Source: Magnetospirillum sp. ME-1 (GTDB lineage: Bacteria; Pseudomonadota; Alphaproteobacteria; Rhodospirillales; Magnetospirillaceae). From it: a stretch of DNA of 64,000 bases. The notes under the pieces were generated by a model. It worked only from the letters and a program-made list of their open reading frames with translations, did not search any database and was not told the origin of the DNA. Location of the stretch: the NCBI RefSeq assembly GCF_002105535.1, contig NZ_CP015848.1:1364907-1428906 (forward strand), in the 5' to 3' direction. The position numbers and the translations under genes are program-made. Below, one piece after another: positions 1,424-18,864 of this stretch. Position 1 is the first letter of the stretch. Every line of letters starts with the position of its first letter.

Positions 1424-1837
1424 TTAGAACTCCTTCTGCACCTTGGCCCGCAATTCCGCCGAGCGGGGGCTTTGGGTGTCCAGCGTGCCGTCGCTGCTGC
1501 CCATGCGGATGGATTCGGCCACCGCGCCCAGGCATTGCTCGTTTCGGAGCTCGTACTGGTCCAGTTGCCAGCTGGCGTTGCGGTTTTCGCTCATCAGCAT
1601 GGCCGCCTCGGTCTGCAACTGGGTCGCCTCGGCCAGCAGGCGGGCGGCGTTGGAGGCGGACTTGGCCGAAGGGGTCGAAGCCCCCGCCGCCGCCATCTGG
1701 GCCGAGGCCGCGGTGCGGTCGTCGCCCTTCAGCCAGATATGGGCCCAGGCCTTCCAGGGGGCGCCGGCCTCGATGTCCAGGGCGTAGAGGACGGAATAGG
1801 CCACCGCCTGGGTGACGGTCAGATCCTCGGTGCTCAT
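1424..1837 (-). CDS. Unknown protein, last gene of the rnf operon
   Basis: A 137-residue soluble protein that I do not recognise. It has no signal peptide or membrane segment. The first 40 residues contain aromatic helices (YSVLYALDIEAG, WKAWAHIWLKG); the middle is Ala/Ser-rich and probably helical (SAKSASNAARLLAEATQLQ). One Cys lies in ELRNEQCLGAVAES. Its ATG overlaps the rnfH stop codon (ATGA at 1834-1837), so it is probably translated with rnfH and belongs to the operon. It may be an accessory factor of the Rnf module, but only its position supports this. Confidence 0.75.
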   Translation of the reverse strand: MSTEDLTVTQAVAYSVLYALDIEAGAPWKAWAHIWLKGDDRTAASAQMAAAGASTPSAKSASNAARLLAEATQLQTEAAMLMSENRNASWQLDQYELRNEQCLGAVAESIRMGSSDGTLDTQSPRSAELRAKVQKEF

Positions 1838-2127
1838 GACTCGGCTCCTCCCGCCGCCGGGGCCTCGGAGGCGGCGCGGCGTTTGACGGTCTTGGGATCG
1901 ACGGTGATGGGGCGGTAGATCTCGATGCGCGCCCCTTCCTCGACCACGGTGTCCAGGGTTGTGGCCTTGCCGAAGATGCCGACCTTCTGGGTTTCCAGGT
2001 CGATTTCGGGGAACTGGTGCAGGATGCCCGATTTCTCGATGGCGGCCCGCACCGTGGTTCCTTCCGGCACGTCGATGGACAGCCAGGACTGACGCGACGG
2101 CAGGGCGTAGACGACTCCGACTTTCAT
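1834..2127 (-). CDS. rnfH: RnfH, ubiquitin-fold accessory protein
   Basis: A 97-residue protein of the RnfH family (beta-grasp fold, MoaD/ThiS-like). It is seen next to rnfE in nitrogen-fixing bacteria, and its role in the Rnf complex is not settled. The body MKVGVVYALPSRQSWLSIDV, the short helix TTVRAAIEKSGIL and the ending GARIEIYRPITVDPKTVKRR are characteristic. The frame stays open upstream to 2193, but the ATG at 2127 begins the conserved domain and lies 19 bp after the rnfE stop codon. The tail beyond residue 80 is Ala/Glu-rich. Confidence 0.88.
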   Translation of the reverse strand: MKVGVVYALPSRQSWLSIDVPEGTTVRAAIEKSGILHQFPEIDLETQKVGIFGKATTLDTVVEEGARIEIYRPITVDPKTVKRRAASEAPAAGGAES

Positions 2128-2146
2128 GATTCTTCTGCCCTTTCCG

Positions 2147-2818
2147 TTACACGCTGTGGGCGCCGGCCATCTTGATCTCCTTGCCCGAGGCAAGGTCGAT
2201 CATGCGCTTGGCCACCACCATCAGTCCGGCGATCAGGAAGCCGCCCGGCGGCAGGATCAGCACCAGGATGCCCCAATCGGCGGGCATGATGCGCATCTCC
2301 AGCACCTTGGCCCAGGGGCCGAGCAGCAGGGCGGCGTCGGCGAACAGGGTGCCCTGGCCGATGGCTTCGCGCACCAGGCCGATGGCGGTCAGCGCGAAGG
2401 TGAAGCCCAGGCCCATGAACAACCCGTCAAGGAACGAGGGCAGCACCGGCTCCTTGGCGGCGAAGGCCTCGAGCCGGGCCAGCGGCAGGCAGTTGGACAC
2501 GATCAGCGGAATGAACAGGCCCAGCACCTTGTACAACTCGTGCATCCAGGCGTTCATGGCCAGGTCCACGAAGGTGACGTTGGCCGCCACGATCAGGATG
2601 TAGACCGGGATGCGCACCTCGTGGGTGACGTAGTTGCGGAACATGGCGACCATCAGGTTCGACGCCGCCATCACCACCGCGGTGGCGATGCCCATGCCGA
2701 AGCCGTTGGTGCCGGTGCCGGTCATGGCCATGGTCGGGCACATGCCGAGCAGCATGCACAGCACGCCGTTGTTTTCCCACAATCCGTCCTTGACGATCCG
2801 TCCGTAGCTGGCAGACAT
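2147..2818 (-). CDS. rnfE: Rnf electron transport complex subunit E
   Basis: A 223-residue inner-membrane protein with about six helices, homologous to RnfA (RnfA/RnfE and NqrD/NqrE family). It is part of the ion- or proton-motive-force-coupled complex that moves electrons between NADH and ferredoxin. The motif LCMLLGMCPTMAMT near residues 20-35 carries the conserved Cys that, with its RnfA counterpart, holds the intramembrane iron centre in Nqr/Rnf. LIVSNCLPLARLEAFA is the second Cys region. ATG 2818 shares its first base with the rnfG stop (TGATG). A GTG one codon upstream (2821) is an alternative start. Confidence 0.95.
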   Translation of the reverse strand: MSASYGRIVKDGLWENNGVLCMLLGMCPTMAMTGTGTNGFGMGIATAVVMAASNLMVAMFRNYVTHEVRIPVYILIVAANVTFVDLAMNAWMHELYKVLGLFIPLIVSNCLPLARLEAFAAKEPVLPSFLDGLFMGLGFTFALTAIGLVREAIGQGTLFADAALLLGPWAKVLEMRIMPADWGILVLILPPGGFLIAGLMVVAKRMIDLASGKEIKMAGAHSV

Positions 2819-3447
2819 CACTTCTTCTCCATCATGCGAGACGAATTGGCGGCGAAGAACTCAAGCCCCTGGCGGATGCCGCCCACCACGGCGCGCGGCG
2901 TGATGGTGGCGCCCGAGAACTGGTCGAACTGGCCGCCGTCCTTCTTGACCTTCCACTTCTCCACCGGCGGATTGCCCAGCGACAACCCGCTGAAGCGGGT
3001 GATCCAGTCGGTCTTGGCGGCTTCGATCTTGTCGCCCAGGCCGGGGGTTTCCTTGTGGGAGATGACGCGCACGCCCAGCAGCTTGCCGTCGGGCGCGATG
3101 CCCATCATCAGCTTGATGGGGCCGCCATAGCCGCCCGAGGCGTTGTATTCATAGGCGATGGCGACGACCTTGCCGTCCTTGGTGGCGCGGTAGACCTCGG
3201 TCTCGGCCGCGCCGCCGTGGCCGCCGGCGGCGGGGTTGGCGATCTTGACCGTATCGGTCACCGGATTGTTGTCGTGGATGGCGCGCGGAATCACTTGCCC
3301 CAGCGAGTTCATCTTGTCTTCCAGGGCGCGCTCCTTGATGGGCGCCTTGGTGATGTCGTCGGTGAGCGCGAGCGCCACGCCGAATCCGGCGCAGAAGACG
3401 CCCAGGATGGTGGCGTGGACCCAGGTGGGCCGGATGGCGTGGCTCAT
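2818..3447 (-). CDS. rnfG: Rnf complex subunit G, covalent flavoprotein
   Basis: A 209-residue protein with one N-terminal membrane anchor (residues 8-28) and a periplasmic FMN-binding domain. The motif DQFSGATITPRAV contains the ApbE target signature DxxSGAT, and Thr181 is the expected attachment site of covalent FMN. SHKETPGLGDKI (130-141) is the other family hallmark. Its start overlaps the rnfD stop (ATGA), as is usual in this operon. ApbE, the transferase that installs the FMN, is encoded first in the same operon. Confidence 0.96.
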   Translation of the reverse strand: MSHAIRPTWVHATILGVFCAGFGVALALTDDITKAPIKERALEDKMNSLGQVIPRAIHDNNPVTDTVKIANPAAGGHGGAAETEVYRATKDGKVVAIAYEYNASGGYGGPIKLMMGIAPDGKLLGVRVISHKETPGLGDKIEAAKTDWITRFSGLSLGNPPVEKWKVKKDGGQFDQFSGATITPRAVVGGIRQGLEFFAANSSRMMEKK

Positions 3448-4520
3448 TTGTCCCCCCTGACCGGCAGAGGCTCGCCCTTGCGGGTGCGCCCGAAGACGCG
3501 CGGCCGGAAATGTTGATCGAGAATGGGCGTCAGCGCGTTCATCAGCAGCACGGCGAAGGCCACGCCCTCGGGATAGCCGGCATAGGTGCGGATGATCCAG
3601 GTGAGCAGCCCGATTCCGATGCCGAAGGCGATCTGCGCCGACTTGGACACCGGCGAGGTGACGTAGTCGGTGGCGATGAAGAAGGCGCCCAGGAACGACG
3701 CGCCCGACAGCAGGTGGACCATGCCGCCGGCATGGCGCGCAGGATCAAGGGCGTTGAAGACGGCGCCCATCAGGAACAGGGTGCCCAGCATGGACACCGG
3801 AATGTGCCACGAGATGATCTTGCGCCACATGAGGAACAGGCCGCCCAGAAGGATCAGCGGCACCGCCGTCTCGCCCATGGAGCCGGGATGGAAGCCGATC
3901 ATCATCTCGCCGATGGTGGGAAGCGAGTCCAGCGACTGGACGACCGGGACGCCCTTGGACAGTTCGGTCTTGATGTGGCCCAGGGGCGAGGCGGTGCTGA
4001 TGCCGTCCAGGGTGAAGCCGCGCCCGAAGGTGATGGTCAGCGCCTCGGAGAAGGACGGCGAGCCCGGGGTGAACAGCGGCTTGGGCGCGACGAACGAGGT
4101 CATCTGCAGCGGGAAGGAGACCAGCACCACCACGCGGCCGACCATGGCCGGGTTGAAGACGTTCTGGCCCAGGCCGCCGAAGGCGTGCTTGGCCAGGCAG
4201 ACGGCGAAGACCGAGGCCACCACGGCCACCCACCAGGGCGCCCACGGCGGCAGCGACAGGGCCAGCAGCCAGCCGGTGATGGCCACCGACCCGTCGCCCA
4301 GCGCCCGGTCGGCATTGCCGCCGCTGATGCGCACGCACAACGCCTCGCAGGCCAGGCAGGCCAGCATGGTGACGATGAACAGGAAGATGGCGGGAAGGCC
4401 GAACAGCCACAGATTGTACAGCGTCGCCGGCACCAGGGCCGCCAGGACCGTGAACATGGTCCGGGAAACGTTGTTGGGGCCGTGGGTAAACGGTCCGCTC
4501 TTGTCGATCACGATGCTCAT
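3444..4520 (-). CDS. rnfD: Rnf complex subunit D, membrane flavoprotein
   Basis: A 358-residue polytopic inner-membrane protein related to NqrB, with about nine helices and the motif GGLGQNVFNPAMVGR (115-129). The flavinylation site reads DGISTASPL (172-180). It fits the loose ApbE consensus Dxx(S/T)xA(T/S) but has Ser178 where Thr is usual, and Thr176 replaces the Gly. The gene overlaps rnfC upstream and rnfG downstream by four bases each. It should carry covalent FMN and form part of the ion-translocating core. Confidence 0.95.
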   Translation of the reverse strand: MSIVIDKSGPFTHGPNNVSRTMFTVLAALVPATLYNLWLFGLPAIFLFIVTMLACLACEALCVRISGGNADRALGDGSVAITGWLLALSLPPWAPWWVAVVASVFAVCLAKHAFGGLGQNVFNPAMVGRVVVLVSFPLQMTSFVAPKPLFTPGSPSFSEALTITFGRGFTLDGISTASPLGHIKTELSKGVPVVQSLDSLPTIGEMMIGFHPGSMGETAVPLILLGGLFLMWRKIISWHIPVSMLGTLFLMGAVFNALDPARHAGGMVHLLSGASFLGAFFIATDYVTSPVSKSAQIAFGIGIGLLTWIIRTYAGYPEGVAFAVLLMNALTPILDQHFRPRVFGRTRKGEPLPVRGDK

Positions 4521-6019
4521 GCTTGGGCCCCGCCTTCGGTGGTGGGTTGCGCCTGGGCGGCAGCGGCGGCAGCCGCTTCGGCGGCCTCCTTGGCGGCCTT
4601 GGCCTTGGCGGCGGCTTCCCGCTTGGCCTGGGCCTGGCGTTCGAGACGCGCGTTATGAGCCTCGACCAGCGCCTTGGTCTGCTCGTTCTTGCGCCGCTCG
4701 CGGTCCAGCGCCGCGATCTTGCCCTTGGCATAGTTGAAATAGTGGACCAGCGGAATGTGCGACGGGCAGATGTAGGAGCACGACCCGCACGACACGCAAT
4801 CCTGCACGCCGATCTTGGCGGCCAGGTCCAGCTTGTCGTTCCTGATGTAGCTGGCCATCTCCACCGGCACCAGGCCGCAGGGGCAATAGGTGACGCAGGA
4901 GCCGCAGCGGATGCAGGGGCTGGGGGCATGTTCGTTGGTTTCGGCTTGCGTCAGCGCCAGGATACCGGACGTGCCCTTGACCACCGCCACGTCCAGCGAC
5001 GGCAGGGGCTGGCCCATCATGGGGCCGCCCGAGATGACGCGCTTGGCCGCCTTGGAGACGCCGCCGCAGAAATCCAGCAGCTCCGAAACCTTTGTGCCCA
5101 GCGGCACCTCGATGTTCTTCGGCTCGGACACCGCGCCGCCGCTCACCGTGACGACGCGCGACACCAGCGGACGGCCCAGGCGCACCGCCTGATGCACGGC
5201 CCGCGCGGTGGCGACGTTGTGCACCACCACGCCGACGTCGGCGGTCAGCTTGCGGGCCGGGGTCTCGCGTCCCGTCACCGCCTGGGTCAGGTGGCGCTCG
5301 GCGCCCATGGGATACTGCACCGGGACGCCCACCACCTCGACGTTCGGCTGCTTGGCCGCTTCGTCCTTGAGCGAGGCGATGGCGTGGGGCTTGTTGTCCT
5401 CGACGGCGATGATCACCTTGGGGGCACCCAGGGCATGGGCCATGATGCGGGCGCCGTCCACCACCTCTGCCGCGTATTCGCGCATGACGCGGTCGTCGCA
5501 GGTGAGGTAGGGCTCGCACTCGGCGCCGTTCAAGAGCAGGATTTCCAGCTTGTGCTGGCCGCCCAGGCCCAGTTTCACCGCCGAGGGGAAGGTGGCGCCG
5601 CCCATGCCGACGATGCCGGCTTCGGCGACGCGGGCCTTGATCTCGTTGGCCGAAGCGGCGAAGGGATCATTGATGGGGGCCATGGGCTCGGCCCATTCGT
5701 CCTTGCCGTCGGAATCCAGCATGATGGTCAGCGTCGGCAGGCCCGAGGGGTGCGGCGCGGTCATCTCGGTGATGGCGGCGATGCGGCCCGAGGTGGGGGC
5801 GTGCACGGCGGCCGAGATGGCGCCTTGGGCCTTGGCCAGCAACTGACCCTTCTTGACCGTGTCGCCGACATTGACCGTGGTGTTGGCCGGCGCGCCCATG
5901 TGCTGCTGCAGGGGCAGGTAGAGGGTCTTGGGCACGGGCAGGGCGACGATGGCCTTCTCGCTCGTCAGCTCCTTGCGGTATTCCGGGTGGATGCCGCCCA
6001 GGATGGGAAACAGTTTCAT
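4517..6019 (-). CDS. rnfC: Rnf complex subunit C, NADH/FMN and Fe-S subunit
   Basis: A 500-residue peripheral subunit where NADH is thought to react. The N-terminal sandwich-hybrid domain (about 25-105) precedes a nucleotide/FMN-binding region with GIVGMGGATFPSAVKL (136-151) and LNGAECEPYLTCDDR (163-177). Two 4Fe-4S clusters are ligated by Cys369/372/375/379 and Cys408/411/414/418. The last 60 residues are a Lys/Ala-rich helical tail, shorter than the long repeat tail of enterobacterial RsxC. It starts 13 bp after rnfB. Confidence 0.97.
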   Translation of the reverse strand: MKLFPILGGIHPEYRKELTSEKAIVALPVPKTLYLPLQQHMGAPANTTVNVGDTVKKGQLLAKAQGAISAAVHAPTSGRIAAITEMTAPHPSGLPTLTIMLDSDGKDEWAEPMAPINDPFAASANEIKARVAEAGIVGMGGATFPSAVKLGLGGQHKLEILLLNGAECEPYLTCDDRVMREYAAEVVDGARIMAHALGAPKVIIAVEDNKPHAIASLKDEAAKQPNVEVVGVPVQYPMGAERHLTQAVTGRETPARKLTADVGVVVHNVATARAVHQAVRLGRPLVSRVVTVSGGAVSEPKNIEVPLGTKVSELLDFCGGVSKAAKRVISGGPMMGQPLPSLDVAVVKGTSGILALTQAETNEHAPSPCIRCGSCVTYCPCGLVPVEMASYIRNDKLDLAAKIGVQDCVSCGSCSYICPSHIPLVHYFNYAKGKIAALDRERRKNEQTKALVEAHNARLERQAQAKREAAAKAKAAKEAAEAAAAAAAQAQPTTEGGAQA

Positions 6020-6032
6020 CGACCGTCTCTCC

Positions 6033-6578
6033 TCAATGCGCCGAATGCTCGCCCGGCTTATGCCAGTGCCAGCCTGCGATGGTTTGCGGAATGGGGCGCA
6101 TCTCGATGGCCTCGGTGGGGCAGATCTTGAAGCACTTGGAACAGGCGTGGCAGGCGTCGGCGATCACCGTGTGCAGCTGCTTGGGCGCGCCGACGATGGC
6201 GTCGGAGCCGCACTCGCCGATGCAGCGCAGGCAGCCGATGCACAGATCCTCGTTGATGAAGGCGACGCGGGGGCCGACCTCTTCATGAGCATCGGCGTCG
6301 GCATGCACGCCCAGCTTGGCGGCCAGCGCCTCGATGGTGGCCTTGCCGCCCGGGGCGCACAGCGTGATGGGGGTATCGCCCTTGGCGAGCGCGGCGGCGT
6401 ATTGCGAGCAGCCGACGAAGCCGCACTGGCCGCATTGCGAGCCGGGCAGCAGGGCCTGAAGCTCGTCCTCGATGGGATTGGTGGGCACGGCCAACAGCTT
6501 GGCGGCGGTTCCCAGAACCGCGCCCAGCGTCACGCCCATCACCGCCAGACTTCCGACATCCAACAACATGACAGGCAA
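6033..6578 (-). CDS. rnfB: Rnf complex subunit B, ferredoxin-like subunit
   Basis: A 181-residue Fe-S protein. The N-terminal membrane anchor (residues 5-30) is followed by a 4Fe-4S domain with Cys49/52/57/74 (CGQCGFVGC) and then an eight-iron ferredoxin domain with Cys113/116/119/123 and Cys143/146/149/153. It passes electrons between the membrane flavins and soluble ferredoxin. The start at 6578 is four bases after the rnfA stop, and the N-terminal helix fits this start. Confidence 0.96.
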   Translation of the reverse strand: MPVMLLDVGSLAVMGVTLGAVLGTAAKLLAVPTNPIEDELQALLPGSQCGQCGFVGCSQYAAALAKGDTPITLCAPGGKATIEALAAKLGVHADADAHEEVGPRVAFINEDLCIGCLRCIGECGSDAIVGAPKQLHTVIADACHACSKCFKICPTEAIEMRPIPQTIAGWHWHKPGEHSAH

Positions 6579-6582
6579 CCTC

Positions 6583-7164
6583 CTAATTGGTGCTCATACC
6601 GGAAAAGCCCATGAAGGCCAGCGCCAGCAGGCTGGCGGTGATGAAGCCGATGGGCGGGCCGGCGAACAGGCGCGGCACGGCGTTCAAGGCGATGCGTTCT
6701 CTGAGGCCGGCGAACAGCACCATGACCAGCGAGTAGCCCAGCGACGAGGCCAGGGCGAACACGGTGCTCTCGATGAAGTTCATCTTGCCTTCCACCAGCA
6801 GCAGATTGACGCCCAGAACGGCGCAGTTGGTGGTGATCAGCGGCAGGTAGATGCCCAGCATCTGGAACATGGCGGGCGAGACCTTGCGCACCACGGCTTC
6901 GGTGAACTGCACGGCCGCCGCGATGACCAGGATGAAGGTCACGGTGCGCAGGTAGCCCAGGTCGTAGGGTTCCAGCAGCGCCTTCTCCACCCCCCAGTCG
7001 ATCATGGCCGAGACCGTGATGCAGAAGGTGGTGGCGGCGCCCATGCCGATGGCGGTGTCCACCCGGGTGGTGACGCCCATGAAGGAGCACAGGCCCAGGA
7101 ACCGCATCAGGACGACGTTGCTGACCAGAGCGGCGCTGATGATCAGCAGAAGGTAATGTTCCAT
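6583..7164 (-). CDS. rnfA: Rnf electron transport complex subunit A
   Basis: A 193-residue inner-membrane protein of six helices, sister of RnfE in inverted topology. MRFLGLCSFMGVT (about 20-32) and LITTNCAVLGVNLL (about 107-120) contain the two Cys residues of the half-channels that, with RnfE, hold the intramembrane iron site. The length matches family members (about 193). It begins 15 bp after the rseC-like gene and opens the structural rnfABCDGE order. Confidence 0.97.
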   Translation of the reverse strand: MEHYLLLIISAALVSNVVLMRFLGLCSFMGVTTRVDTAIGMGAATTFCITVSAMIDWGVEKALLEPYDLGYLRTVTFILVIAAAVQFTEAVVRKVSPAMFQMLGIYLPLITTNCAVLGVNLLLVEGKMNFIESTVFALASSLGYSLVMVLFAGLRERIALNAVPRLFAGPPIGFITASLLALAFMGFSGMSTN

Positions 7165-7179
7165 CGGGTGCTTCCCCCT

Positions 7180-7701
7180 TTACCCATGTTCCGTGTGGCA
7201 TGACCCGTCGACCGGCGCCTCGAAGGCGCGGCGCAGGTAGCGGGGGGTCAGCACCCCCCGTGCCGAAAGATAGCCGGAGATGATCCGGGCCCCGAGCAGA
7301 CCGACCAGCATTCCGCCGACGGCGCCCATGGCCGCCATGGAATCGCTGTGGCCCATTTCCTGTCCGGCGATGCCGCCCGCCAGCAAGGTGAGCAGCGGCA
7401 GGCCGTAGGCCGTGAGCGCCCCCTTGGTGAGCGTATCCTCGCGCACGCCCACCACCACCCGCTCGCCGACCGCAAGGCCGAGATCGCCCGGCAGGGCGAA
7501 GCGCTTGGCCAGCTGGCGCGCGGACGGGTCGCCCATCTGCTTGCCGATGCTGCACAGCCCGGCCGAGTGGCAGGTGCCGCAGCCGGCGACCGGCTCGGGC
7601 TCGGCCCAGGCCTTGCCGCCGCTGATGGCGACCACGCGGGCGAAGCCTTCGACCATGTCGCGGTCATTGGCGTCGGGGAAAGTGGACAGGGGATCGCTCA
7701 T
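7180..7701 (-). CDS. RseC/MucC family protein of the Rnf operon
   Basis: A 173-residue protein with a short cytoplasmic domain, two transmembrane helices (about 98-115 and 120-145) and a tail. The N-terminal GGKAWAEPEPVAGCGTCHSAGLC contains Cys41, Cys44 and Cys50, the usual Cys cluster of the RseC/MucC family. Some members belong to the SoxR-reducing (Rsx/Rnf) system. It sits between apbE and rnfA, seven bases after apbE. A role in assembly or maturation of Rnf clusters is an inference from this position. Confidence 0.87.
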   Translation of the reverse strand: MSDPLSTFPDANDRDMVEGFARVVAISGGKAWAEPEPVAGCGTCHSAGLCSIGKQMGDPSARQLAKRFALPGDLGLAVGERVVVGVREDTLTKGALTAYGLPLLTLLAGGIAGQEMGHSDSMAAMGAVGGMLVGLLGARIISGYLSARGVLTPRYLRRAFEAPVDGSCHTEHG

Positions 7702-7708
7702 CGTTGGA

Positions 7709-8707
7709 TCAGGCCGTCACCGTCGCGACGACGCCCTGGGGCGTGACGAAGAAGGCCTGATGCGCCCCGGCGGCGCGCAGGATGTGCTGGCGGTCGGCTT
7801 CGGGCGCCAGGATCAGGGCGGTGGCCAGGCCGTCGGCGATGGTGGCGTTGTCGGCGATCACCGTGACGCCCAGATCGGCGGGTGCGGTCCTGCCGGTCTT
7901 GGGGTCGATGATGTGGGTGAACTTGCCGGCCTCGTCGAAGATGGTGCCGTAGCCGCCCGAGGTGGACACGCACTTGTTGACCACGTCCACCGAGGTGACG
8001 GCCTTGGAATTGTCCGCCGGGTTGGCGATGCCGATGCGCCAGGCCGAGCCGTCGGGCTTGGCGTCCAGGGCGCGGGGCTCGCCCATGTCCACCAGCATCT
8101 GGGTGAAACCGTGGGCCTTGAGCACGTCGGACACCTTATCGGTGATGTAGCCTTGGGCGCGGGCGTTGAGCGTCAGCGCCATGCCGGGCTTGGCCAGCCG
8201 GACGCTGCGGCCGGCGGCGTCGATCTCGATGCCCTTCCAGTCCACCAGGGCCAGGGCGGCCGCGATGTCCTTGGCCGCCGGGCCGGCTGCGTCGGGGCTG
8301 GCGGCGGTGAAGTGGCTGAAATACAGCTGCCACACCGGCTGGATGGTGGGGTCGAAGGCTCCGCCGCTGATCTCGGCCAGGGACTTGGCGTGGGCGACCA
8401 GTTCGATGAATTCGGCCGGCGCGTTGTCCAGCTTGCCGTCGCGGTTCAAGGCCGACAGGGCCGAATCGGCGCGGTAGACGCTGAACATGGCTTCCAGACG
8501 GGCCAGCTCGGCTTGGGCGGCGGCCAGGGCCGCCTTGGCCTTGGCCTCGTCGGCGGCGTAGAGCTGGATGGAGGACGGCGCGCCGAGCGTCGTTCCTTCC
8601 CAGCGCACCAGGCGGGCCTGGGCGGCATTGGCCTTCATCAGCAGCGGCAGTCCGGCGGCGGCGGCCAGAATGGTGATGGCGCGACGGCGGGTGATACGAA
8701 CGGTCAT
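7709..8707 (-). CDS. apbE: ApbE/RnfF, FAD:protein FMN transferase
   Basis: A 332-residue protein that uses FAD and Mg2+ to attach FMN covalently to Thr/Ser in RnfG and RnfD. The start at 8707 gives a Tat-like signal (ITRRRAITILAAAAGLP) and has GGAGGG about 10 bases upstream. The frame is open to 8872 but lacks family similarity there. Recognisable blocks are GGAFDPTIQPVWQLY, LTLNARAQGYITDKV, LVDMGEPRALD and HIIDPKTGRTAPAD. No lipobox Cys follows the signal, so export is probably by Tat. Rhodobacter RnfF is the same family. It is the first gene after the sigma-54-like promoter. Confidence 0.95.
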   Translation of the reverse strand: MTVRITRRRAITILAAAAGLPLLMKANAAQARLVRWEGTTLGAPSSIQLYAADEAKAKAALAAAQAELARLEAMFSVYRADSALSALNRDGKLDNAPAEFIELVAHAKSLAEISGGAFDPTIQPVWQLYFSHFTAASPDAAGPAAKDIAAALALVDWKGIEIDAAGRSVRLAKPGMALTLNARAQGYITDKVSDVLKAHGFTQMLVDMGEPRALDAKPDGSAWRIGIANPADNSKAVTSVDVVNKCVSTSGGYGTIFDEAGKFTHIIDPKTGRTAPADLGVTVIADNATIADGLATALILAPEADRQHILRAAGAHQAFFVTPQGVVATVTA

Positions 8708-8798
8708 CGAGCCTGAGCCCTCCTTCGGGTGAAACTTCCGGGCGCCCAAGGGTCGGCCCTGACTGGGGCCTGATCCCGTGGTCCTGCCGAACTCTCCT

Positions 8799-8814
8799 AG
8801 CAAGACCCGCGCCA
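8799..8814 (-). promoter_or_regulatory. Sigma-54-type -24/-12 promoter for the apbE-rnf operon
   Basis: Read on the minus strand the site is TGGCGCG-GGTC-TTGCT. It differs at one position from the consensus TGGCACG-N4-TTGCW and keeps the required GG-N10-GC spacing (GG at 8813-8812, GC at 8801-8800). The predicted transcription start is near 8788, leaving a leader of about 80 bases before the apbE ATG at 8707. Found by eye; no experiment is implied. Confidence 0.65.
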
Positions 8815-9036
8815 CAAAAGTATAATTGCTCAAAAAAACGTCACATAGATGGTATGCGAGGACAACGCCCACATCAAGAGTGCGTGTTTTGAAATGCGCA
8901 TTGCAATACCAATTTTACAAAATGGCGGAAATGAGCCGAATTTTAAGCGATACGGAGCAAAATGCCCGGGTGTAACAGGATCGCTATGGCCTTTGGGCAG
9001 CAGAAAAAATTCCGTGCCCTGTGGTCTCGCTCCCTG
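8815..9036. other. AT-richer spacer between promoter and upstream activator
   Basis: This gene-free stretch, clearly lower in GC than its surroundings, separates the sigma-54-like promoter from the TGT-N10-ACA site. Such DNA often bends or binds IHF between an enhancer and a sigma-54 promoter, but I could not find a convincing IHF consensus. No small ORF with a ribosome-binding site was seen. Confidence 0.4.
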
Positions 9037-9052
9037 TGTCGCAAGTGCGACA
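9037..9052. promoter_or_regulatory. NifA-type upstream activator sequence (TGT-N10-ACA)
   Basis: TGTCGCAAGTGCGACA is a perfect palindrome (7-bp arms, AG centre) and fits TGT-N10-ACA, the NifA binding site. It lies about 225-250 bp upstream of the sigma-54-like promoter, at the far end of the usual enhancer range. A second TGTCGCA half-site occurs at 9076-9082. Confidence 0.6.
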
Positions 9053-9068
9053 GAGCGGGGCGATGTCG

Positions 9069-9096
9069 TACCAAATGTCGCACATGACCTTTGGTA
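9069..9096. promoter_or_regulatory. Inverted repeat TACCAAA/TTTGGTA
   Basis: Seven-base arms TACCAAA (9069-9075) and TTTGGTA (9090-9096) flank 14 bases that include a TGTCGCA half-site. It could be an operator or a cruciform; no known regulator consensus is matched. A smaller hairpin, CACCGT-TAA-ACGGTG, follows at about 9128-9142, and a T8 run lies near 9187. The rest up to the TPR gene holds nothing recognisable. Confidence 0.3.
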
Positions 9097-9251
9097 TGGG
9101 ATGTTTTTAGTCTTTTGCGCTTGGCGGCACCGTTAAACGGTGATAAGTAGAAACCCGCAAGGACCTGCGCCCATTGGGCCGGGTCATTTTTTTTGGCGAG
9201 ACGATCGCCGTCGACGCGCTCTTCGACCCGGGGGGGGTAGGGGAGAGCGGT

Positions 9252-9285
9252 AAAGGGGGAGGCCCGATTTCAGGCCTCCCCCTTT
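9252..9285. terminator. 13-bp stem terminator at the end of the TPR/OGT gene
   Basis: A perfect inverted repeat (arms 9252-9264 and 9273-9285, AAAGGGGGAGGCC and complement) with an 8-base loop. The stem overlaps the final codons and the TGA of the minus-strand glycosyltransferase gene. A short T-run follows on each strand, so it may work in both directions and insulate the rnf regulatory region. Confidence 0.7.
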
Positions 9286-11240
9286 ATCTTTGCGCACCAG
9301 CCTTTCCAGGCCGTCCGGAAGAAGTCCTCCACCGCCGCCACATGGGCGGCGGCGTCGCCCACCCCCTGGCGCATGGCCGGGCGCAGGCGGCGGCGCAGAT
9401 CCGACAGCCGCACGGAATCGGCGGCCAGGGCGACGGCCAGGTCCTCGTAGCCCTCAAGATCCGGGCGGGCCAGTTCCTCCTCCATCCCCATGGCGTCAAG
9501 CAGGGCCAGGGTCTGGCGCGAGAAGGGGCGTGGTCCCGGCAGGGTCACCACCGGCACCCCCATCCACAGCGCCTCGCACGAGGTGAAGGCGCCGCAATAG
9601 GGGAAGGGGTCGAGGCCGATATCCACGTCGGCGTATTCGGCCAGCAACTGCTCGGGCGGCGAATTGCCGCGCAGTTCCAGCCGCTCGGGCGCGATGCCAT
9701 GGGCGGCGAAGGCGTCGCGCAGGCGCCCGGCCACCTCCGCATGGGCGAGGTGGGGCCATTTCAGCAGCAGACGCGAGCCCGGCACTCGGGCCAGGATGCG
9801 CGACCAGGACTGGATCACCCGGTCGTTCAGCTTGGCGATGTTGTTGAAGCTGCCGAAGGTGACATGGCTCCGCGCCAGCATGGGCGGGGCGGCGGGGGCC
9901 GGCGAATCCGGCCCCTGGTAGCACAGGCGCGAGCCGGGCAGGAACGCCACCTTTTCCCGGAACCAGCCTTCCGCCTCGGGCGGAACCGTGGCGCGGTCCA
10001 TCAGGACGTAATCCATGGCCGCCAGCCCGGTGGTGAAGGGATAGCCCAGCCAGCTCACCTGCACCGGGGCGGGCTTGGCGGCGAACAGGCCCAGCCGGTT
10101 GCCCGCCGTATGGCCGTCCAGGTCCATCAGGATGTCGATGCCGTCCTCTCGGATCAGCTGGGCCAGGGCTTCGTCGTCCTGGTCCGCCACATCGCGCCAC
10201 AGATCGGCGCTGCTTTGTAATTGGCGGGCGATGTCGTCGTCGCCCGGCCGGGTGGCGTAGCAGACGGCGAAAACCTTTGCGCGGTCGTGGCGCTCCAGCA
10301 CCGGGCGCATCAGCAGGCCCAGGGGATGGCGGCGGAAATCGGCGGAGACGTAGCCGATGCGCAGCACCCGCTCGGGCTCGGGCGGATTGGCGTAGCGCGC
10401 CGGAACGGTGGCGCGGCGGCGGTCCATGATCCGCCGGTGGGCCAGCCCGATCTCCTTGCCGCTTTGGTCGGGAAGGTAATGCAGGCAGTTGAGGTGGTTG
10501 GAAGCCGCCATGGTCAGGCGGGGATCCATGGTCCAGGCGGCGTGGTAGCAGGCGGCGGCCTCGGTGGCGCGTCCTTCGCCATAAAAGGCGTTGCCCAGGT
10601 TGTAATGGGCGGCGGAATGGCTGGGGCGCAGCGCAATGGCGGTGCGAAGGCTGTCCTGGGCCGCCTTCATCCGCCCGGCCTGCTGTTGCAACGCGCCGAG
10701 ATCGGTGAGCATCCGCCAGTCGCCGGGGGCGAGGCGGGCGGCCGTCTCCATGGCATCGGCGGCTTCGGGCGCCCGGCCCAGCGCATCCAGGCAGCGGGCC
10801 AACTGGGCGTGGACCACCGGCAGATGGGGCAGAAGCTCGGCGGCGCGGCGGTAGCAGGGCTCGGCCTCCGCCGCTTGCCCCAGGCGCATTCGGACATTGC
10901 CCAGGTTGAACCAGGCCGGAGCGAGGCCGGGGGAAAGGTCGGCGGCGCGGGCGAAATCGGCTTCGGCCTCGTCCAGGCGTCCGAGATCGGAGAAAAGGTC
11001 GCCGCGGTTGCACCAGGCTTCGGCCAGATCGGGGGCCAGCTCCAGGGCGCGGCCGTGGAGCGTCAGGGCGTCGTCGGCCTGTCCGCGCTGCTGGGCGATC
11101 ACGCCGCGGTTGGTCAGGGCCTTGGCCGCCAGGGACGGGGGAGCGACGATCCGCCGATAAAGGGAATCGGCTTCATCCAGGCGGCCCTGGTTGTGTAGCG
11201 ATTCGGCCTGTCGGAGCGCTTGGGCGGGATCGGAGGTCAT
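9270..11240 (-). CDS. TPR protein with SPINDLY/OGT-type glycosyltransferase domain
   Basis: A 656-residue soluble protein. Residues of about 5-300 form tandem 34-residue TPR repeats (for example AWFNLGNVRMRLGQAAEAEP). Residues of about 320-645 form a GT41 O-GlcNAc transferase-like domain with GYVSADFRRHPLG, VSWLGYPFTTG, FGSFNNIAKLNDR and LDPFPYCGAFTSCEALWMG. It probably transfers a sugar from a nucleotide sugar onto protein Ser/Thr; flagellin or other surface proteins are possible targets. The start is ATG 11240, where the TPR region begins, 37 bp after the CoA-transferase stop. It is last in its operon and ends in a terminator. Confidence 0.9.
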   Translation of the reverse strand: MTSDPAQALRQAESLHNQGRLDEADSLYRRIVAPPSLAAKALTNRGVIAQQRGQADDALTLHGRALELAPDLAEAWCNRGDLFSDLGRLDEAEADFARAADLSPGLAPAWFNLGNVRMRLGQAAEAEPCYRRAAELLPHLPVVHAQLARCLDALGRAPEAADAMETAARLAPGDWRMLTDLGALQQQAGRMKAAQDSLRTAIALRPSHSAAHYNLGNAFYGEGRATEAAACYHAAWTMDPRLTMAASNHLNCLHYLPDQSGKEIGLAHRRIMDRRRATVPARYANPPEPERVLRIGYVSADFRRHPLGLLMRPVLERHDRAKVFAVCYATRPGDDDIARQLQSSADLWRDVADQDDEALAQLIREDGIDILMDLDGHTAGNRLGLFAAKPAPVQVSWLGYPFTTGLAAMDYVLMDRATVPPEAEGWFREKVAFLPGSRLCYQGPDSPAPAAPPMLARSHVTFGSFNNIAKLNDRVIQSWSRILARVPGSRLLLKWPHLAHAEVAGRLRDAFAAHGIAPERLELRGNSPPEQLLAEYADVDIGLDPFPYCGAFTSCEALWMGVPVVTLPGPRPFSRQTLALLDAMGMEEELARPDLEGYEDLAVALAADSVRLSDLRRRLRPAMRQGVGDAAAHVAAVEDFFRTAWKGWCAKIKGEA

Positions 11241-11277
11241 TTCCGATTTATCGGGGGCGGCTGCCGCTCCGTCAAGG

Positions 11278-12498
11278 CTACACCACGCCTTTGGCGCGCA
11301 AGGCGGCCAGCGCGTCTTCGTCCAGCCCCAGCACTTCGGCCAGCACCGCATCGGTATGCTCGCCCAGCAGCGGCGGCCCCCGGTCGTAGGCCACTTCGGA
11401 GTCCGACAGGCGCAGCGGGCTGGCCACGGTGGGAATGCTTCCGGCCGCGGCGTGGGGAACCTCGCGGCGCAGGCGTCGCGCCTGGGCCTGGGGATCGGCG
11501 AACACCTTGTCCATGGTGTTGATGGGGCCCGAGGGAATCTGGCGGCGCTCGAGCGCCGCCAGCAGGGCCGTCGAGGTGTAGCGCCGCGTTTCGGCCTCGA
11601 TCAGCGGAATCAGCACGTCGCGGTGTTGGACCCTGGCGCGGTTCAGGGTGAAACGCTCGTCCACCGCCCATTCGGGATGGCCCAGCTCGTCGGCCAGCTT
11701 GGCGAACTGCCCGTCATTGCCCACCGCGATGATCAGGTGGCCATCGGCGGTGGGGAAGGCCTGATAGGGCACGATGGCGGCGTGGCCGTTGCCCGCCCGG
11801 GTCGGGGCGTCGCCGCTGACCAGATAGGTCATGGCCTGGTTGGTCATCATGGACACCTGCACGTCCAGCAGGCCCAGGTCGATATGCTGGCCGCGCCCGG
11901 TACGGTGGCGCTGGTTGAGCGCCGCCAGCACGGCGATCACCGCGTGCAGGCCGGTGGACAGGTCGGCGATGGCGATGCCGGCCTTCTGCGGCCCGCCGCC
12001 GGGAAGCGTATCCTTTTCCCCCGTCACGCTCATCAGCCCGCCCATGGCCTGGATCATGAAGTCGTAGCCGGCCCTGGGCGCATAGGGCCCGTCCTGGCCG
12101 AAGCCGGTGATGGAGCAATAGACCAGCCGGGGATTGAGCTCCTTCAGGGAATCGTAGTCCAGGCCGTACTTCTTCAATCCGCCCAGCTTGTAGTTCTCCA
12201 CCAGCACGTCGGCCCGGGCGGCCAGCGAACGGACCAGCTCCTGGCCCTCGGGCGTCGCCATGTCGATGGTCACCGAATGCTTGCCCCGGTTGGCCGCCAG
12301 GTAATAGGCGGCGTCGCCCTTCTCGCCCGTCTTGGGATGGTTGAGGAAGGGCGGGCCCCAGCCCCTGGTGTCGTCGCCGGAGCCGGGCTTTTCCACCTTG
12401 ATCACCCGGGCGCCCAAATCGGCCAGCATCTGGGTGCAGAAGGGACCGGCCAGCACGCGCGAAAGGTCGAGGACCAGAATGTCGTCAAGGGCCCGCAT
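11278..12498 (-). CDS. CaiB/BaiF family (class III) CoA-transferase
   Basis: A 406-residue enzyme that moves CoA from one carboxylic acid to another. The N-terminal LDLSRVLAGPFCTQMLADLGARVIKVEKPGSG is split here as LSRVLAGPFCTQML and GARVIKVEKPGSGDDTRGWG; it and LVENYKLGGLKKYGLDY are family signatures (the latter spans the usual catalytic Asp region, where this protein reads VLVENYK). GYDFMIQAMGGLMSVTG is also conserved. The start ATG 12498 has AGGA about eight bases upstream and lies 11 bases after the stop of the membrane protein gene. It could activate the substrate of the surrounding acyl-CoA pathway with succinyl-CoA or acetyl-CoA. Confidence 0.92.
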   Translation of the reverse strand: MRALDDILVLDLSRVLAGPFCTQMLADLGARVIKVEKPGSGDDTRGWGPPFLNHPKTGEKGDAAYYLAANRGKHSVTIDMATPEGQELVRSLAARADVLVENYKLGGLKKYGLDYDSLKELNPRLVYCSITGFGQDGPYAPRAGYDFMIQAMGGLMSVTGEKDTLPGGGPQKAGIAIADLSTGLHAVIAVLAALNQRHRTGRGQHIDLGLLDVQVSMMTNQAMTYLVSGDAPTRAGNGHAAIVPYQAFPTADGHLIIAVGNDGQFAKLADELGHPEWAVDERFTLNRARVQHRDVLIPLIEAETRRYTSTALLAALERRQIPSGPINTMDKVFADPQAQARRLRREVPHAAAGSIPTVASPLRLSDSEVAYDRGPPLLGEHTDAVLAEVLGLDEDALAALRAKGVV

Positions 12499-12509
12499 CT
12501 CGTCATTCC

Positions 12510-13919
12510 TTATTGTGTCAAACGCGACAGAACGGTCAGCCACAGGGTCAGCACCGCGAAGGCCGCCAGGGTGAACAAGCCGTTCCAGCCCAGCACGATG
12601 GTCTTGGACGGCTTGCCCACCAGTTCGCCCAGCAGCATGGCGGACGCGGTCATGGCCGAGGAATTGATGGCCAGGCACCAGCCGCCGATCAGACCCAGCG
12701 CCAGGGATTCGGTGGACAGCGGCAGCGACGGCGCGGCGCTGAGCGCCGAGGCGATGATGGTGACGGAAACGATGGGATTGATGCCGATCAGCGCCGGGCC
12801 CATCACCGCCAGGATGGCCAGGGCCGGCAGGGCGGCGGGTGGAGCCAACGGCGAGGCGATCAGGGTGCCCAGGGTCTCGGGCGGGATCATGGCCGAGAAC
12901 AGGGTGCCGATGAAGCCGGCCGAGGACAGGATGGCGATCTCGGTGCGGTAGGCGGGGAAGGTCTGGGCCGCCTGGGTCACCACCCGGCGGCCGGTCTCGG
13001 CGCAGCCCTTGGCGATGCCGCCGCCCAAATACTGGCGGGCCAGCCAGCCCAGGCCCACCAGCGGGGTGGAGACCAGCATGGCGCGGCTGAGCGGCACGCC
13101 CAGCAGGACCTCGAAGGCGAGCGCCATGACGAAGACCAGCAGCACCAGCCCCGTCACCCCCATCAGGGCGGCCATGTCGCGGGTGGGTTCGGTGGGGGGC
13201 AGCAGATGCCGGAGATGGGCGGGGGCCTGGATGCGGTCCTGCACCCAGCCCAGGCCCAGCACCAGGGTGCCGGTCGCCATGCCCAGCGGCAGCATGGAGC
13301 TCCAGTGCAGGCTGGGCAGGGCGGTGAGCAGCACCGCCAGCGAGATGGACAGCGGCGAGGCCAGGGGCGTGATGGAAAAGCCGCGCAACAGCGCCAGGAT
13401 CATGCGGCGCTCGCGGATGTCCCTGATCTGCTCGTTTCCGCCCGCCGCCTCCAGCGAGTTCCTCTGCTTGATCATGATGCCCAGCAGGCTCAGCACCCCG
13501 ATGTTGAGGATGATGCCGAACAGATAGCCGCCCAGCGTCAGCAGGGCATAACGCCGCCCCGGGGTCTGGTTGACGAAGAAGGTGGAGCAGCGGCTGACCA
13601 GGGGCGAGGTGCGCGCCGCTTCCCGCAGGAAGAACTGGTTGGCGAAGAAGGTGGCGAAGAAGGCGCCGGTGTCGAGCGACGAGGCGATGACCCGGCCGGG
13701 CTCGGCGGTTCCGGTCACGGCCGCGCCCATGGTCAGGCCCAGCGCCAGGCCGATCATCACCTTGGCGTTGACCGCCATGCGCCGCCATTCCGCCGCCAGG
13801 AAGGCCACCAGCAGGACGCGCGCCCCCATGCGAAGCGCTTCGGCCGGCGCGATCACGTCGCCCAGCACGCAGGCGATCATGCCGAGCAGGAGGAGGGCGG
13901 ACGGGCGCCCGCCGCTCAT
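12510..13919 (-). CDS. Polytopic membrane protein of unknown function
   Basis: A 469-residue integral membrane protein with roughly 11-12 hydrophobic helices. I do not recognise the family with confidence. FFATFFANQFFLREAARTSP and SRCSTFFVNQTPGRRYALL (about 90-125) and LIGINPIVSVTIIASAL with WCLAINSSAMTASAMLLGE near the end look like the two re-entrant regions of ion-transporter-superfamily carriers, so it may be a secondary transporter for an organic acid. ATG 13919 overlaps the stop of the nitronate monooxygenase gene (ATGA). It lies between acyl-CoA genes, which fits export or import of a pathway acid. Confidence 0.8.
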   Translation of the reverse strand: MSGGRPSALLLLGMIACVLGDVIAPAEALRMGARVLLVAFLAAEWRRMAVNAKVMIGLALGLTMGAAVTGTAEPGRVIASSLDTGAFFATFFANQFFLREAARTSPLVSRCSTFFVNQTPGRRYALLTLGGYLFGIILNIGVLSLLGIMIKQRNSLEAAGGNEQIRDIRERRMILALLRGFSITPLASPLSISLAVLLTALPSLHWSSMLPLGMATGTLVLGLGWVQDRIQAPAHLRHLLPPTEPTRDMAALMGVTGLVLLVFVMALAFEVLLGVPLSRAMLVSTPLVGLGWLARQYLGGGIAKGCAETGRRVVTQAAQTFPAYRTEIAILSSAGFIGTLFSAMIPPETLGTLIASPLAPPAALPALAILAVMGPALIGINPIVSVTIIASALSAAPSLPLSTESLALGLIGGWCLAINSSAMTASAMLLGELVGKPSKTIVLGWNGLFTLAAFAVLTLWLTVLSRLTQ

Positions 13920-14902
13920 GACGCGGTCAACCCTTTCAGGCGGCCCAGCGCCGCCCGCGCCTCGTCCTCGAAGCGGCGGACGATGGCGGCCAGGGGCTCG
14001 ATGCGGTCGGCGAAGGCCACCGACTGGCCCACCGACAGCGCCGCCTTGGTCCAGTCGCCGGTGCGGTAGGCCTCGCGCCCCACCTTGCCGGAAATGTGGG
14101 GCATCAGCGCCTCGATGCCGGCCCCCTCCTTCTCCAGGGTCTGTACCGTGGCGGTGGCCTCGTTGCGCAGCACGCGCGCCGTGTTGCGCAAGGACGACAG
14201 GATCAGGGTGGTCTCGGTCTCGTCGGCCTCGATCAGGCGGCGCTTGTAATCGGCATGGGCCCAGATCTCCTCGGCCACCAGAAAGCGGGTGCCCACCACC
14301 ACGCCGTCGGCGCCCAAGCCCAGGGCGGCCACCAGATGGGCGCCGGTGCCGATGCCGCCGCCCACCAGCAGGGGGATCGACAGCTTGGACGCCGCCACGT
14401 TGGCCTGAACAAAGGTGCCCACCATGTCCATGCCGGGGTGGCCGCCGCATTCGGCGCCGACCACCGCCACGGCATCGACGCCCTCGGCCTGGGCTTTCAG
14501 CGCGTATTTCACCGCCGGCACCTTGTGCACCACCTTGATTCCGGCCGCCTTCAGCGCCGGCAGGTAGGGGGCGGGATTGCGGCCCGAGGTTTCGACGAAG
14601 CGCACCCCTTCCTCGACGATCAGGTCGAAGACGGCTTGGGTGCGCTCGCCCTGGACCAGTTTGGGCAGCATGGAGACGTTGACGCCGAACGGCTTGCCCT
14701 CCGACAGATCACGGCACTTTCGGATGGCGGATCTGAGATCGCCCAACTCCTCGTAGCTGGCCGCCGTGATGAAGCCGCAGATGCCGGCATGGGCCGCGGC
14801 GGCGACGTAATCGGGCGTCGCCAGCCATTGGAGCCCACCGGCCAGCACCGGCAAGTGAATGCCGAACAGTTCGGTGACGCGGGTGTGGAAGAGGGCGGTC
14901 AT
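13916..14902 (-). CDS. Nitronate monooxygenase family flavoprotein (NPD)
   Basis: A 328-residue TIM-barrel FMN enzyme of the 2-nitropropane dioxygenase/nitronate monooxygenase family. Seen blocks are PVLAGGLQWLATPDYVAAAA (9-28), VVGAECGGHPGMD (about 147-159), IPLLVGGGIGTGAHLVAAL and GADGVVVGTRFLVAEE (FMN phosphate site). Family members oxidise nitronates, but many in catabolic operons act as enoyl reductases or have unknown substrates. The start lies only five bases from a palindromic repeat, whose end may supply part of its ribosome-binding region. Confidence 0.9.
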   Translation of the reverse strand: MTALFHTRVTELFGIHLPVLAGGLQWLATPDYVAAAAHAGICGFITAASYEELGDLRSAIRKCRDLSEGKPFGVNVSMLPKLVQGERTQAVFDLIVEEGVRFVETSGRNPAPYLPALKAAGIKVVHKVPAVKYALKAQAEGVDAVAVVGAECGGHPGMDMVGTFVQANVAASKLSIPLLVGGGIGTGAHLVAALGLGADGVVVGTRFLVAEEIWAHADYKRRLIEADETETTLILSSLRNTARVLRNEATATVQTLEKEGAGIEALMPHISGKVGREAYRTGDWTKAALSVGQSVAFADRIEPLAAIVRRFEDEARAALGRLKGLTAS

Positions 14903-14907
14903 TTCCT

Positions 14908-15013
14908 TGTCATCCCGAGCGAAGTCGAGGGATCTCCGCCTGGAAGGGCGGTGCCGATGCTGAAAAACCGTGCCAGGACGAGATCCCTCCTCCCGATGGT
15001 CGTCGGGATGACA
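14908..15013. repeat. Dispersed palindromic repeat, family A copy 1
   Basis: A 106-bp element with terminal inverted repeats TGTCATCCCGA / TCGGGATGACA and internal complementary arms GAGGGATCTC / GAGATCCCTC and CCTGG / CCAGG, so the whole unit can fold into one long hairpin. It fills the gap between the thioesterase and nitronate monooxygenase genes. Related copies are at 37991-38092, 61517-61619 and, more diverged, 30373-30460. Confidence 0.9.
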
Positions 15014-15023
15014 ATCACACGAT

Positions 15024-15455
15024 TCACAGCGCCACGCCTTCGGGCGATTCGCTGCCGGTGCGGTAGCGGAAGGTGCCTTCGCCCATGGCGATCAGCTTGC
15101 CGTTCTCGTCCAGGATTTCCGACGAGCAGAACACGATGCGGCTGCCGCCCGCCTTCTTGCGGCCGATGGCGCGGATCAGGCCGTGGCGGACCTGGCCGGT
15201 GAAGCTGGTGGTCAGCTGCAGGGTGACGCAGCGCCGCACCCGGCCGGGATGGGGACAGTAGGTGGCGGCGAAGCCGCACGAGGTGTCGATCAGGGTGGCG
15301 AGAACGCCGCCATGGACCAGTCCGGCGCGGTTGCAGTGCTTACGGTCGACGGTCAGTTCCAGCACGGCGTGATCCTCGGCCCATTCGGCCAGATGGTAGC
15401 CCAACAGGTCCTGGAAGCCCGATGCGGGCTCGCCGTCCAGCAGATCAGTGCTCAT
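15024..15455 (-). CDS. PaaI-type hotdog acyl-CoA thioesterase
   Basis: A 143-residue hotdog-fold protein. NRAGLVHGGVLATLIDTSCG (about 42-61) carries the HGG motif and the downstream Asp of the PaaI/4HBT-II group, which hydrolyses aryl- or acyl-CoA thioesters. ATG 15455 was chosen because the hotdog domain begins just after it and it overlaps the end of livF by 11 bases. Within a catabolic operon it probably rescues CoA from dead-end thioesters. Confidence 0.88.
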   Translation of the reverse strand: MSTDLLDGEPASGFQDLLGYHLAEWAEDHAVLELTVDRKHCNRAGLVHGGVLATLIDTSCGFAATYCPHPGRVRRCVTLQLTTSFTGQVRHGLIRAIGRKKAGGSRIVFCSSEILDENGKLIAMGEGTFRYRTGSESPEGVAL

Positions 15456-16173
15456 GAAGGGTGTCCCTGGCGAAGTAAAGGTCGTGGAGGTGGGCAAGAT
15501 CCACCGAATCGGCGCTTTCCGACAGCACAACCTTGCCGCCCCTGACCAGATAGACGTGGTCGGCGATCTTCAAGGCCTTGTTGGTGTTCTGCTCCACCAG
15601 CACGATGGTGCGCCCCTCTTGCCGCAGACGGTCGAGGATGCCCATCACCTCGTCCACCACCACCGGCGCAAGGCCCAGCGACGGCTCGTCCACCAAGATC
15701 AGCTTGGGCTCCTCCATCAGGCCGCGCCCCATGGCCAGCATCTGCGCCTCGCCGCCCGACAGGGCGCCGGCCAGCTGGTCGCGGCGCTCAAAGAGGCGGG
15801 GGAACATGTCGTAGACCATCTTCAGGTTTTTCGGCGCATTGGCCCGGCACTTCCTGGGAAACGCCCCCATCATCAGGTTGTCGGCCACACTCATGTCGCG
15901 GAACACCATGCGGCCTTCGGGGATCATGGCGATACCGTCCGCCACCATGTCCCAGGTGGGCGCGTTGGTGCGGTCCATGCCCTGGTAGAGGATGCGTCCG
16001 GCTCCGGTCTTCACCAGTCCCATGATGGCGCGCAAAAGCGTGGTCTTGCCGCCGCCGTTGGGGCCGAGGATGCAGGTGAGCTTGCCTTCCTCGATGGTGA
16101 GCGACAGGTCCCACAGCACGTTGATGGAGCCGTAGCCGGCCCGCAAGGCTTCGATTTCAAGCAGCTTCGCCAC
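15445..16173 (-). CDS. livF: Branched-chain-type ABC importer ATPase LivF
   Basis: A 242-residue ABC ATPase with Walker A GPNGGGKTTLLRAI, signature LSGGEAQMLAMGRGLM, Walker B PKLILVDEPSLGLAP and the switch His in VLVEQNTNKALK (a Gln/Asn variant typical of LivF). It pairs with LivG to power import through LivHM. It overlaps livG by 17 bases and the thioesterase gene by 11, so the set is one operon. Confidence 0.95.
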   Translation of the reverse strand: MAKLLEIEALRAGYGSINVLWDLSLTIEEGKLTCILGPNGGGKTTLLRAIMGLVKTGAGRILYQGMDRTNAPTWDMVADGIAMIPEGRMVFRDMSVADNLMMGAFPRKCRANAPKNLKMVYDMFPRLFERRDQLAGALSGGEAQMLAMGRGLMEEPKLILVDEPSLGLAPVVVDEVMGILDRLRQEGRTIVLVEQNTNKALKIADHVYLVRGGKVVLSESADSVDLAHLHDLYFARDTLHEH

Positions 16174-17825: not shown

Positions 17826-17829
17826 GGTC

Positions 17830-18705: not shown

Positions 18706-18745
18706 GGGCGGAGAACCTGGGATAGGAAAAGGGCAATCCTTTTCC

Positions 18746-18846: not shown

Positions 18847-18864
18847 AGAAAAATTCGGCGTTTC

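Follow-up and report, generated by a model that had tools for sequence, protein, structure and literature searches.

A 64,000-nucleotide stretch of the genome of Magnetospirillum sp. ME-1, which is related to magnetic bacteria (bases 1364907-1428906 of the single 4.55-Mb contig; 'the window' below), contains a minus-strand run of ten genes made up of: apbE; an rseC-like gene; the rnfABCDGEH genes; and an open reading frame (ORF) of 137 amino acids. This fits the ten-gene module named in a preliminary description of the same DNA. The rnfA, B, C, D, G and E subunits of the Rnf complex are all encoded in this one operon, which lies about 0.5 Mb away from nifH, and rnfC is single-copy in the genome. 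The region upstream of apbE contains a sigma-54 core promoter, a sigma-70-like promoter and, further upstream, a predicted NifA activator site (Table 1). Very probably, these elements form a composite control region for apbE-rnf, in which a sigma-70-like basal promoter is overlaid by a NifA/sigma-54 nitrogen-fixation switch.

Predicted sigma-54 and NifA sites upstream of apbE

The sigma-54 core is read on the minus strand from 8814 to 8799, has the GG-N10-GC spacing and ends 92 bp ahead of the apbE ATG at 8707, as the preliminary description had stated. No other site in the window comes within one mismatch of TGGCACG-N4-TTGCW. Allowing two mismatches gives 10 sites in the window against 12.65 expected, which is not significant, and the looser matches are thus noise. 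A sigma-54 motif search had been suggested as a check, and a consensus scan of the genome places the rnf core among six exact matches to TGGCRCG-N4-TTGCW. With one mismatch, the genome holds 129 matches (72 on one strand, 57 on the other), whereas the reversed pattern has 95 (46 plus 49), indicating that most of these looser matches are due to chance. Of these 129 loci, 30 were checked, and among the 30 the rnf core and one other have a TGT-N10-ACA motif within 500 bp upstream.

The activator site starts 238 bp from the start of the core, within the 225-250 bp first estimated. It had been called a perfect palindrome fitting TGT-N10-ACA; the motif is indeed there and its 7-mer arms match perfectly, but self-complementarity fails at the central AG, which made the wording slightly too strong. 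The bare TGT-N10-ACA motif is uninformative in the window (2 found against 4.72 expected, not significant). The stricter TGTCG-N6-CGACA form occurs at four places in the genome (rnf, nifEN, another place in the nif cluster and one other), as compared with one for the reversed-pattern control, and exact TGTCGCANNTGCGACA is limited to rnf and nifEN. These two places carry the same 16-mer in the same orientation relative to the promoter, rnf being read towards apbE. The nifEN copy (G000:C1:1893469, G000 being the ME-1 genome) is 67 bp ahead of a one-mismatch sigma-54 core, with nifE and nifN next downstream, and the third strict site, at 1898285 in the nif cluster, likewise stands 67 bp ahead of a one-mismatch core (the 1898352 promoter). 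Both promoters therefore combine TGTCG-N6-CGACA with a sigma-54 core as at rnf, although their spacing is 67 bp rather than 238 bp. The nifH promoter has a one-mismatch core at 1887733 and activator sites 106 and 136 bp ahead of it.

The genome encodes one RpoN and one NifA that scores over the model cut-off (G000:C1:217313-218947); below that cut-off are five more matches to the model, each having E of 5.4e-79 or better. The over-cut-off NifA is encoded far from nifH, which differs from a statement in PMC4999443, ambiguous in the wording of the passage, that nifA is always found alongside nifHDK in the genome.

Two further sites were noted in the genome. The fourth strict activator-type site (L114, G000:C1:4546928-4546943) is followed by a two-mismatch sigma-54-like core whose start lies 62 bp beyond that of the site, and is possibly a further NifA target or a chance match. 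In addition, a one-mismatch sigma-54-like core at G000:C1:123671-123686 (L020) lies 54 bp before a 487-amino-acid ORF and has a TGT-N10-ACA motif 187 bp ahead; it is possibly a second long-spaced NifA target, or again chance.

Conservation and alternative layouts among congeners

The 1000 bp upstream of apbE were scanned in 17 congeneric genomes (G000-G016, the ME-1 genome included). The pair of sites is found in 10 of them, in two layouts: a long layout (class A) in the seven genomes of ME-1's own clade (G000, G016, G005, G013, G010, G009 and G012), with 235-246 bp between activator site and core; and a short layout (class B) in three genomes (G011, G014 and G003), in which TGGCACG-N4-TTGCT has an activator site 56-57 bp before it. 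The class B pair stands 307-375 bp before apbE, upstream of the sigma-70-like promoter. The pair is thus kept within the clade of the window, not across the genus. In class A, all 16 letters of the core are identical in the seven genomes and both 5-letter arms of the activator site are invariant in all seven loci, while its six central letters and its flanks vary. The persistence of both sites amid a variable centre and flanks counts for NifA/sigma-54 control. Seven loci from named records with ApbE matches of at least 68% divide similarly (L044, L045 and L046 class A; L048 class B; L047, L049 and L050 neither), but most of them probably repeat genomes already counted and are not independent. 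Three rows were left out: L080, where the apbE start lies beyond the locus end; L051, a 23% match; and L081, which was never scanned.

The nifH gene is present in all 17 congeneric genomes and in 26 of the 29 genomes searched, and rnfC gives one match in 16 of the 17, the exception being G012 (79% complete). In contrast to the rnf layouts, the spacing at nifH hardly moves among congeners: in the 16 with a recognised nifH start (that of G006 was missed, one aspect of a scan that left 4 of 30 examined nifH loci unrecognised), the nearer activator site is at 106 bp in 13, 95 bp in one and 128 bp in two. Outside the genus, three of the 10 recognised nifH loci lack TGT-N10-ACA in the stretch scanned.

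The preliminary description made no mention of the architecture, in which a sigma-70-like promoter lies between the two sites in class A. This promoter is present in all seven class A loci, in L059 and L062 (both class B), in L060 and, with a spacer of 18 instead of 17, in L061; looser relatives can be seen by eye in L063, L064, L065, L067 and L068. We read this element as a housekeeping promoter of the operon. In class A, it belongs to a conserved block that runs from the AATGCGYATT palindrome through CTTGATG-N16-ATACCATC (8849-8877) and a T-run leader to the sigma-54 core, which begins exactly 34 bp beyond the sigma-70-like -10 in all seven genomes. This constant distance is partly due to the conserved leader and so provides no independent proof that the two promoters are interlocked. 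A similar T-run stretch recurs among several congeners, whether or not they have the sigma-54 core (the run of L056 holds one C); it may act as a slippage tract within the initially transcribed sequence, or as a binding site. Further upstream, six of the seven class A loci carry an AAAGGCC block at a distance of 55-58 bp from the NifA site, which is roughly the position of the class B core. It may be a remnant of an old core, a reading to which we give little weight because GGC is common. In L058, the AATGCGYATT motif sits inside a 20-bp near-perfect palindrome.

Table 1. Predicted control elements and genes of the apbE-rnf locus (positions in the window)
Feature	Position	Strand	Remarks
Sigma-54 (-24/-12) core promoter	8799-8814	-	TGGCGCGGGTCTTGCT
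T-run leader element	8821-8838	-	TTTTTTTGAGCAATTATA; just downstream of the sigma-70-like -10
Sigma-70-like promoter	8849-8877	-	TTGATG (8872-8877), spacer 17, TACCAT (8849-8854)
AATGCGYATT palindrome	8893-8902		Upstream of the sigma-70-like -35
AAAGGCC block	8988-8994	-	
Predicted NifA upstream activator site	9037-9052		TGTCGCAAGTGCGACA; TGTCG-N6-CGACA type
apbE (FAD:protein FMN transferase family)	7709-8707	-	First gene of the operon; PF02424, 222 bits
RseC/MucC-family protein gene	7180-7701	-	PF04246
rnfA	6583-7164	-	TIGR01943 over cut-off
rnfB	6033-6578	-	TIGR01944 over cut-off
rnfC	4517-6019	-	TIGR01945 over cut-off
rnfD	3444-4520	-	PF03116 and place in operon
rnfG	2818-3447	-	PF04205 (FMN_bind) and place in operon
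rnfE	2147-2821	-	TIGR01948 over cut-off
rnfH	1834-2193	-	NF002490 over cut-off; mechanical ORF with TTG start, true start probably further inside
137-amino-acid ORF	1424-1837	-	Tenth gene; without family match

Proposed basal transcription and nitrogen-fixation control of rnf

Control of apbE-rnf by NifA and sigma-54 is well supported by the sequence, since the activator 16-mer is common to nifEN, nifA and rpoN are present, and both sites are kept throughout the clade. In the arrangement that we propose, the sigma-70-like promoter common to near relatives would give basal transcription. NifA would bind the upstream palindrome, and looping of about 240 bp of DNA would bring it to RNA polymerase held with sigma-54 at the core; the activated polymerase would then start transcription near 8788, on top of the basal level. 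A polymerase waiting at the core, 34 bp below the -10, could also hinder basal initiation. The raised level of Rnf would supply low-potential electrons to nitrogenase, a role suggested by work on Rhodobacter capsulatus (PMC6925177) and Azoarcus (PMC3916325) and by general background.

The preliminary description had proposed that the whole ten-gene module is induced for nitrogen fixation. The sites support NifA control of the operon, but basal expression is likely and the link to NifA is confined to a lineage. The position of the sigma-70-like promoter between the sites, together with its occurrence in congeners that lack them (L060 and L061), indicates that rnf probably does not depend entirely on nitrogen fixation, and since seven of the 17 congeners carry nifH and lack the pair, the NifA-rnf link is lineage-specific. 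The constant part thus looks like a housekeeping-type promoter, with a NifA overlay that depends on the lineage. As rnfC is single-copy, basal demand and the demand of nitrogen fixation may both be covered by a single operon.

Several observations weigh against the composite control region. Neither site is found in G008, G002, G006, G015, G001, G007 and G004, all of which have nifH; a single bare TGT-N10-ACA, with no core, occurs in G001, and a single two-mismatch core in G002, 486 bp upstream of apbE. The activator site is also missing from all 11 usable loci of other genera (L069-L079); two of these do have a core, exact in L069 (at -402) and with one mismatch in L074 (at -89). The cross-genome comparison that had been called for therefore gives a divided answer: the pair is kept in the whole of ME-1's clade, but not in these congeners or in the other genera. 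Only 8 of the 12 consensus letters are present in the sigma-70-like promoter and no sigma-70 site was reported by the promoter scan, so that conservation is the only evidence for it. The 238-bp spacing, rightly described at the outset as unusual, is outside the 67-136 bp range of the three activator-bearing nif promoters of the genome. NifA-type activators work across a variable distance, and we take the spacing as a common trait, not a defining one. DNA bending had been suggested to accommodate the long spacing, and a scan for integration host factor (IHF) sites between the activator site and the core, the only test made of this idea, gave nothing convincing. In class A, there are only two-mismatch matches to WATCAA-N4-TTR, the commonest of which (six of seven loci) abuts the core; in class B, a one-mismatch match lies downstream of the core in L062 and L063.

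FixABCX was considered as another way to deliver electrons, one that might account for the genomes lacking the sites. The PF05187 search returned only long frames of 544-594 amino acids in all 17 genomes and was silent in the control, Escherichia coli, which has fixX, so that absence cannot be shown by it. The PF01012 search gave no match in seven of the 17 genomes, an implausible result that was not used.

The upstream palindrome could instead belong to a CRP/FNR-family regulator, for example CooA, that acts on something besides the sigma-54 core. TGTCG-N6-CGACA has the symmetry of CRP-family sites (we take the CooA site to be of the TGTC-N8-GACA kind), and a gene of the nif region (L042:13539-14285) has below-cut-off matches to CRP/FNR-family models. 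However, the 16-mer shared with nifEN stands there 67 bp ahead of a sigma-54 core, and such a core accompanies the site in every one of the 10 congeners that have it before apbE. A CooA/CRP reading is further weakened by the lack of a match to the CO dehydrogenase CooS in the genome (cooA itself was not searched), and we regard this explanation as very unlikely. Somewhat less improbable, but still unlikely, is that the core is real and answers to NtrC or another NifA-like protein, the far palindrome being a relic. The five weaker NifA-model matches and the long spacing would suit such an activator, as would a sigma-54-like core that stands before a PII-like gene (L029, named by eye) without an upstream TGT-N10-ACA. 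A relic would not be expected to keep both arms in all seven class A loci while its flanks and centre vary, and in class B a site of the same kind stands at an ordinary distance from a sigma-54 core.

It is harder still to credit that both sites are chance matches and that the sigma-70-like promoter alone drives rnf. The congeners with neither site and the commonness of bare TGT-N10-ACA would fit this view, but both strict motifs are rare genome-wide and yet co-occur in 10 congeners, ME-1 included. In addition, 20,000 dinucleotide shuffles of the 400 bp before apbE (2,000 for each of these 10 loci) produced TGTCG-N6-CGACA in seven cases and an exact sigma-54 core in five.

The combination of NifA and sigma-54 at rnf has precedents. 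The predicted NifA regulon of PMC4999443 (2016) already places rnfABCDGEH under NifA control in Rhodospirillales, with TGT-N10-ACA and TGGCACG-N4-TTGCW as consensus sites. The passages available from that study say nothing on spacing, on an intervening promoter or on gain, loss or relocation within one genus, although its supplementary tables may list the site. Neither the layout difference nor the embedded promoter was found in the titles, abstract openings and passages of the literature searched, and nothing was found on Magnetospirillum start sites with rpoN. According to PMC6925177, the rnfABCDGEH operon of R. capsulatus is similarly under NifA and RpoN, and rnfA-lacZ expression is NifA-dependent, being strongly reduced in a nifA double mutant. 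There, however, rnf lies inside nif cluster A, whereas the ME-1 operon is remote from nifH, opens with apbE and the RseC-family gene and has a sigma-70-like promoter between the sites. In Azoarcus sp. BH72, an RpoN site and tandem NifA sites are predicted upstream of rnfA1, and rnf1 is positively regulated by NifA (PMC3916325); that strain has a second, uninduced rnf2, in contrast to the single rnfC of ME-1.

Rnf is a candidate electron donor to nitrogenase, and tying a general-purpose electron pump to nitrogen fixation is a practical question for engineering. The genus offers a natural series before one gene, from loci with no NifA link, through those with an ordinary NifA promoter, to those with a long-range promoter that appears interlocked. 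The evolution and the distance dependence of NifA control thus become directly testable.

Possible turnover of the layout, and neighbouring features

A FastTree phylogeny was built from rnf-locus DNA (apbE and downstream) of 20 sequences, 17 from congeners and three from other genera, other matched loci being left out. Class A forms one clade (support 1.0) that is nested among class B and none-type genomes; L059, L060 and L061 join it first (0.976), followed by L062 (0.985). Support is lower for the branch joining L063 to this group (0.770) and is lacking for the pairing of L066 and L067 (0.036). The gene upstream of the locus differs between the two layouts: the TPR glycosyltransferase of the window is found in all seven class A loci, and an alpha/beta-hydrolase-like ORF (named by eye) in all three class B loci and L060; the upstream gene of L061, L064, L066 and L067 matches neither type (L065 and L068 were not put in). 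This difference implies that an upstream rearrangement accompanied the change of layout.

L060 has probably lost the pair of sites. A hand count by unordered parsimony ties at four changes between an ancestral class B and four separate gains; the common layout and common upstream gene lead us to favour an ancestral B. The class A activator site may be the class B site kept, or may be newly gained. We tentatively suggest, as a possibility we would not put high, that enhancer and promoter have turned over within one genus, with the NifA input to rnf kept and the core moved. The core would have shifted from 57 bp below the NifA site, above the housekeeping promoter, to 34 bp below the -10 of that promoter. 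An add-on upstream promoter would thereby have become part of an interlocked pair, in which sigma-54 polymerase, waiting at its core, could act as a gate on basal transcription until triggered by NifA.

On the plus strand, a hairpin at 9162-9185 is followed by a T run (region 9115-9194), with only a mechanical 95-amino-acid ORF (8849-9136) ahead of it. The hairpin folds in all six class A loci tried and may represent a terminator or a small RNA. It was absent from the output of the terminator scan, and an Rfam scan of 6000-20000 gave 13 matches at E up to 5, none of which reached the gathering score. Inspection by eye revealed no divergent plus-strand sigma-54 promoter that might share the activator site. 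The nearest ApbE sequences in named records include those of Paramagnetospirillum caucaseum SO-1 (89%), a Phaeospirillum metagenome-assembled genome (90% over 325 residues) and P. kuznetsovii (79%); the SO-1 locus has the class A layout and that of P. kuznetsovii the class B layout. Elsewhere in the genome, the nif cluster (L041, G000:C1:1872001-1890000) adjoins a benzoyl-CoA reductase and dearomatisation gene set.
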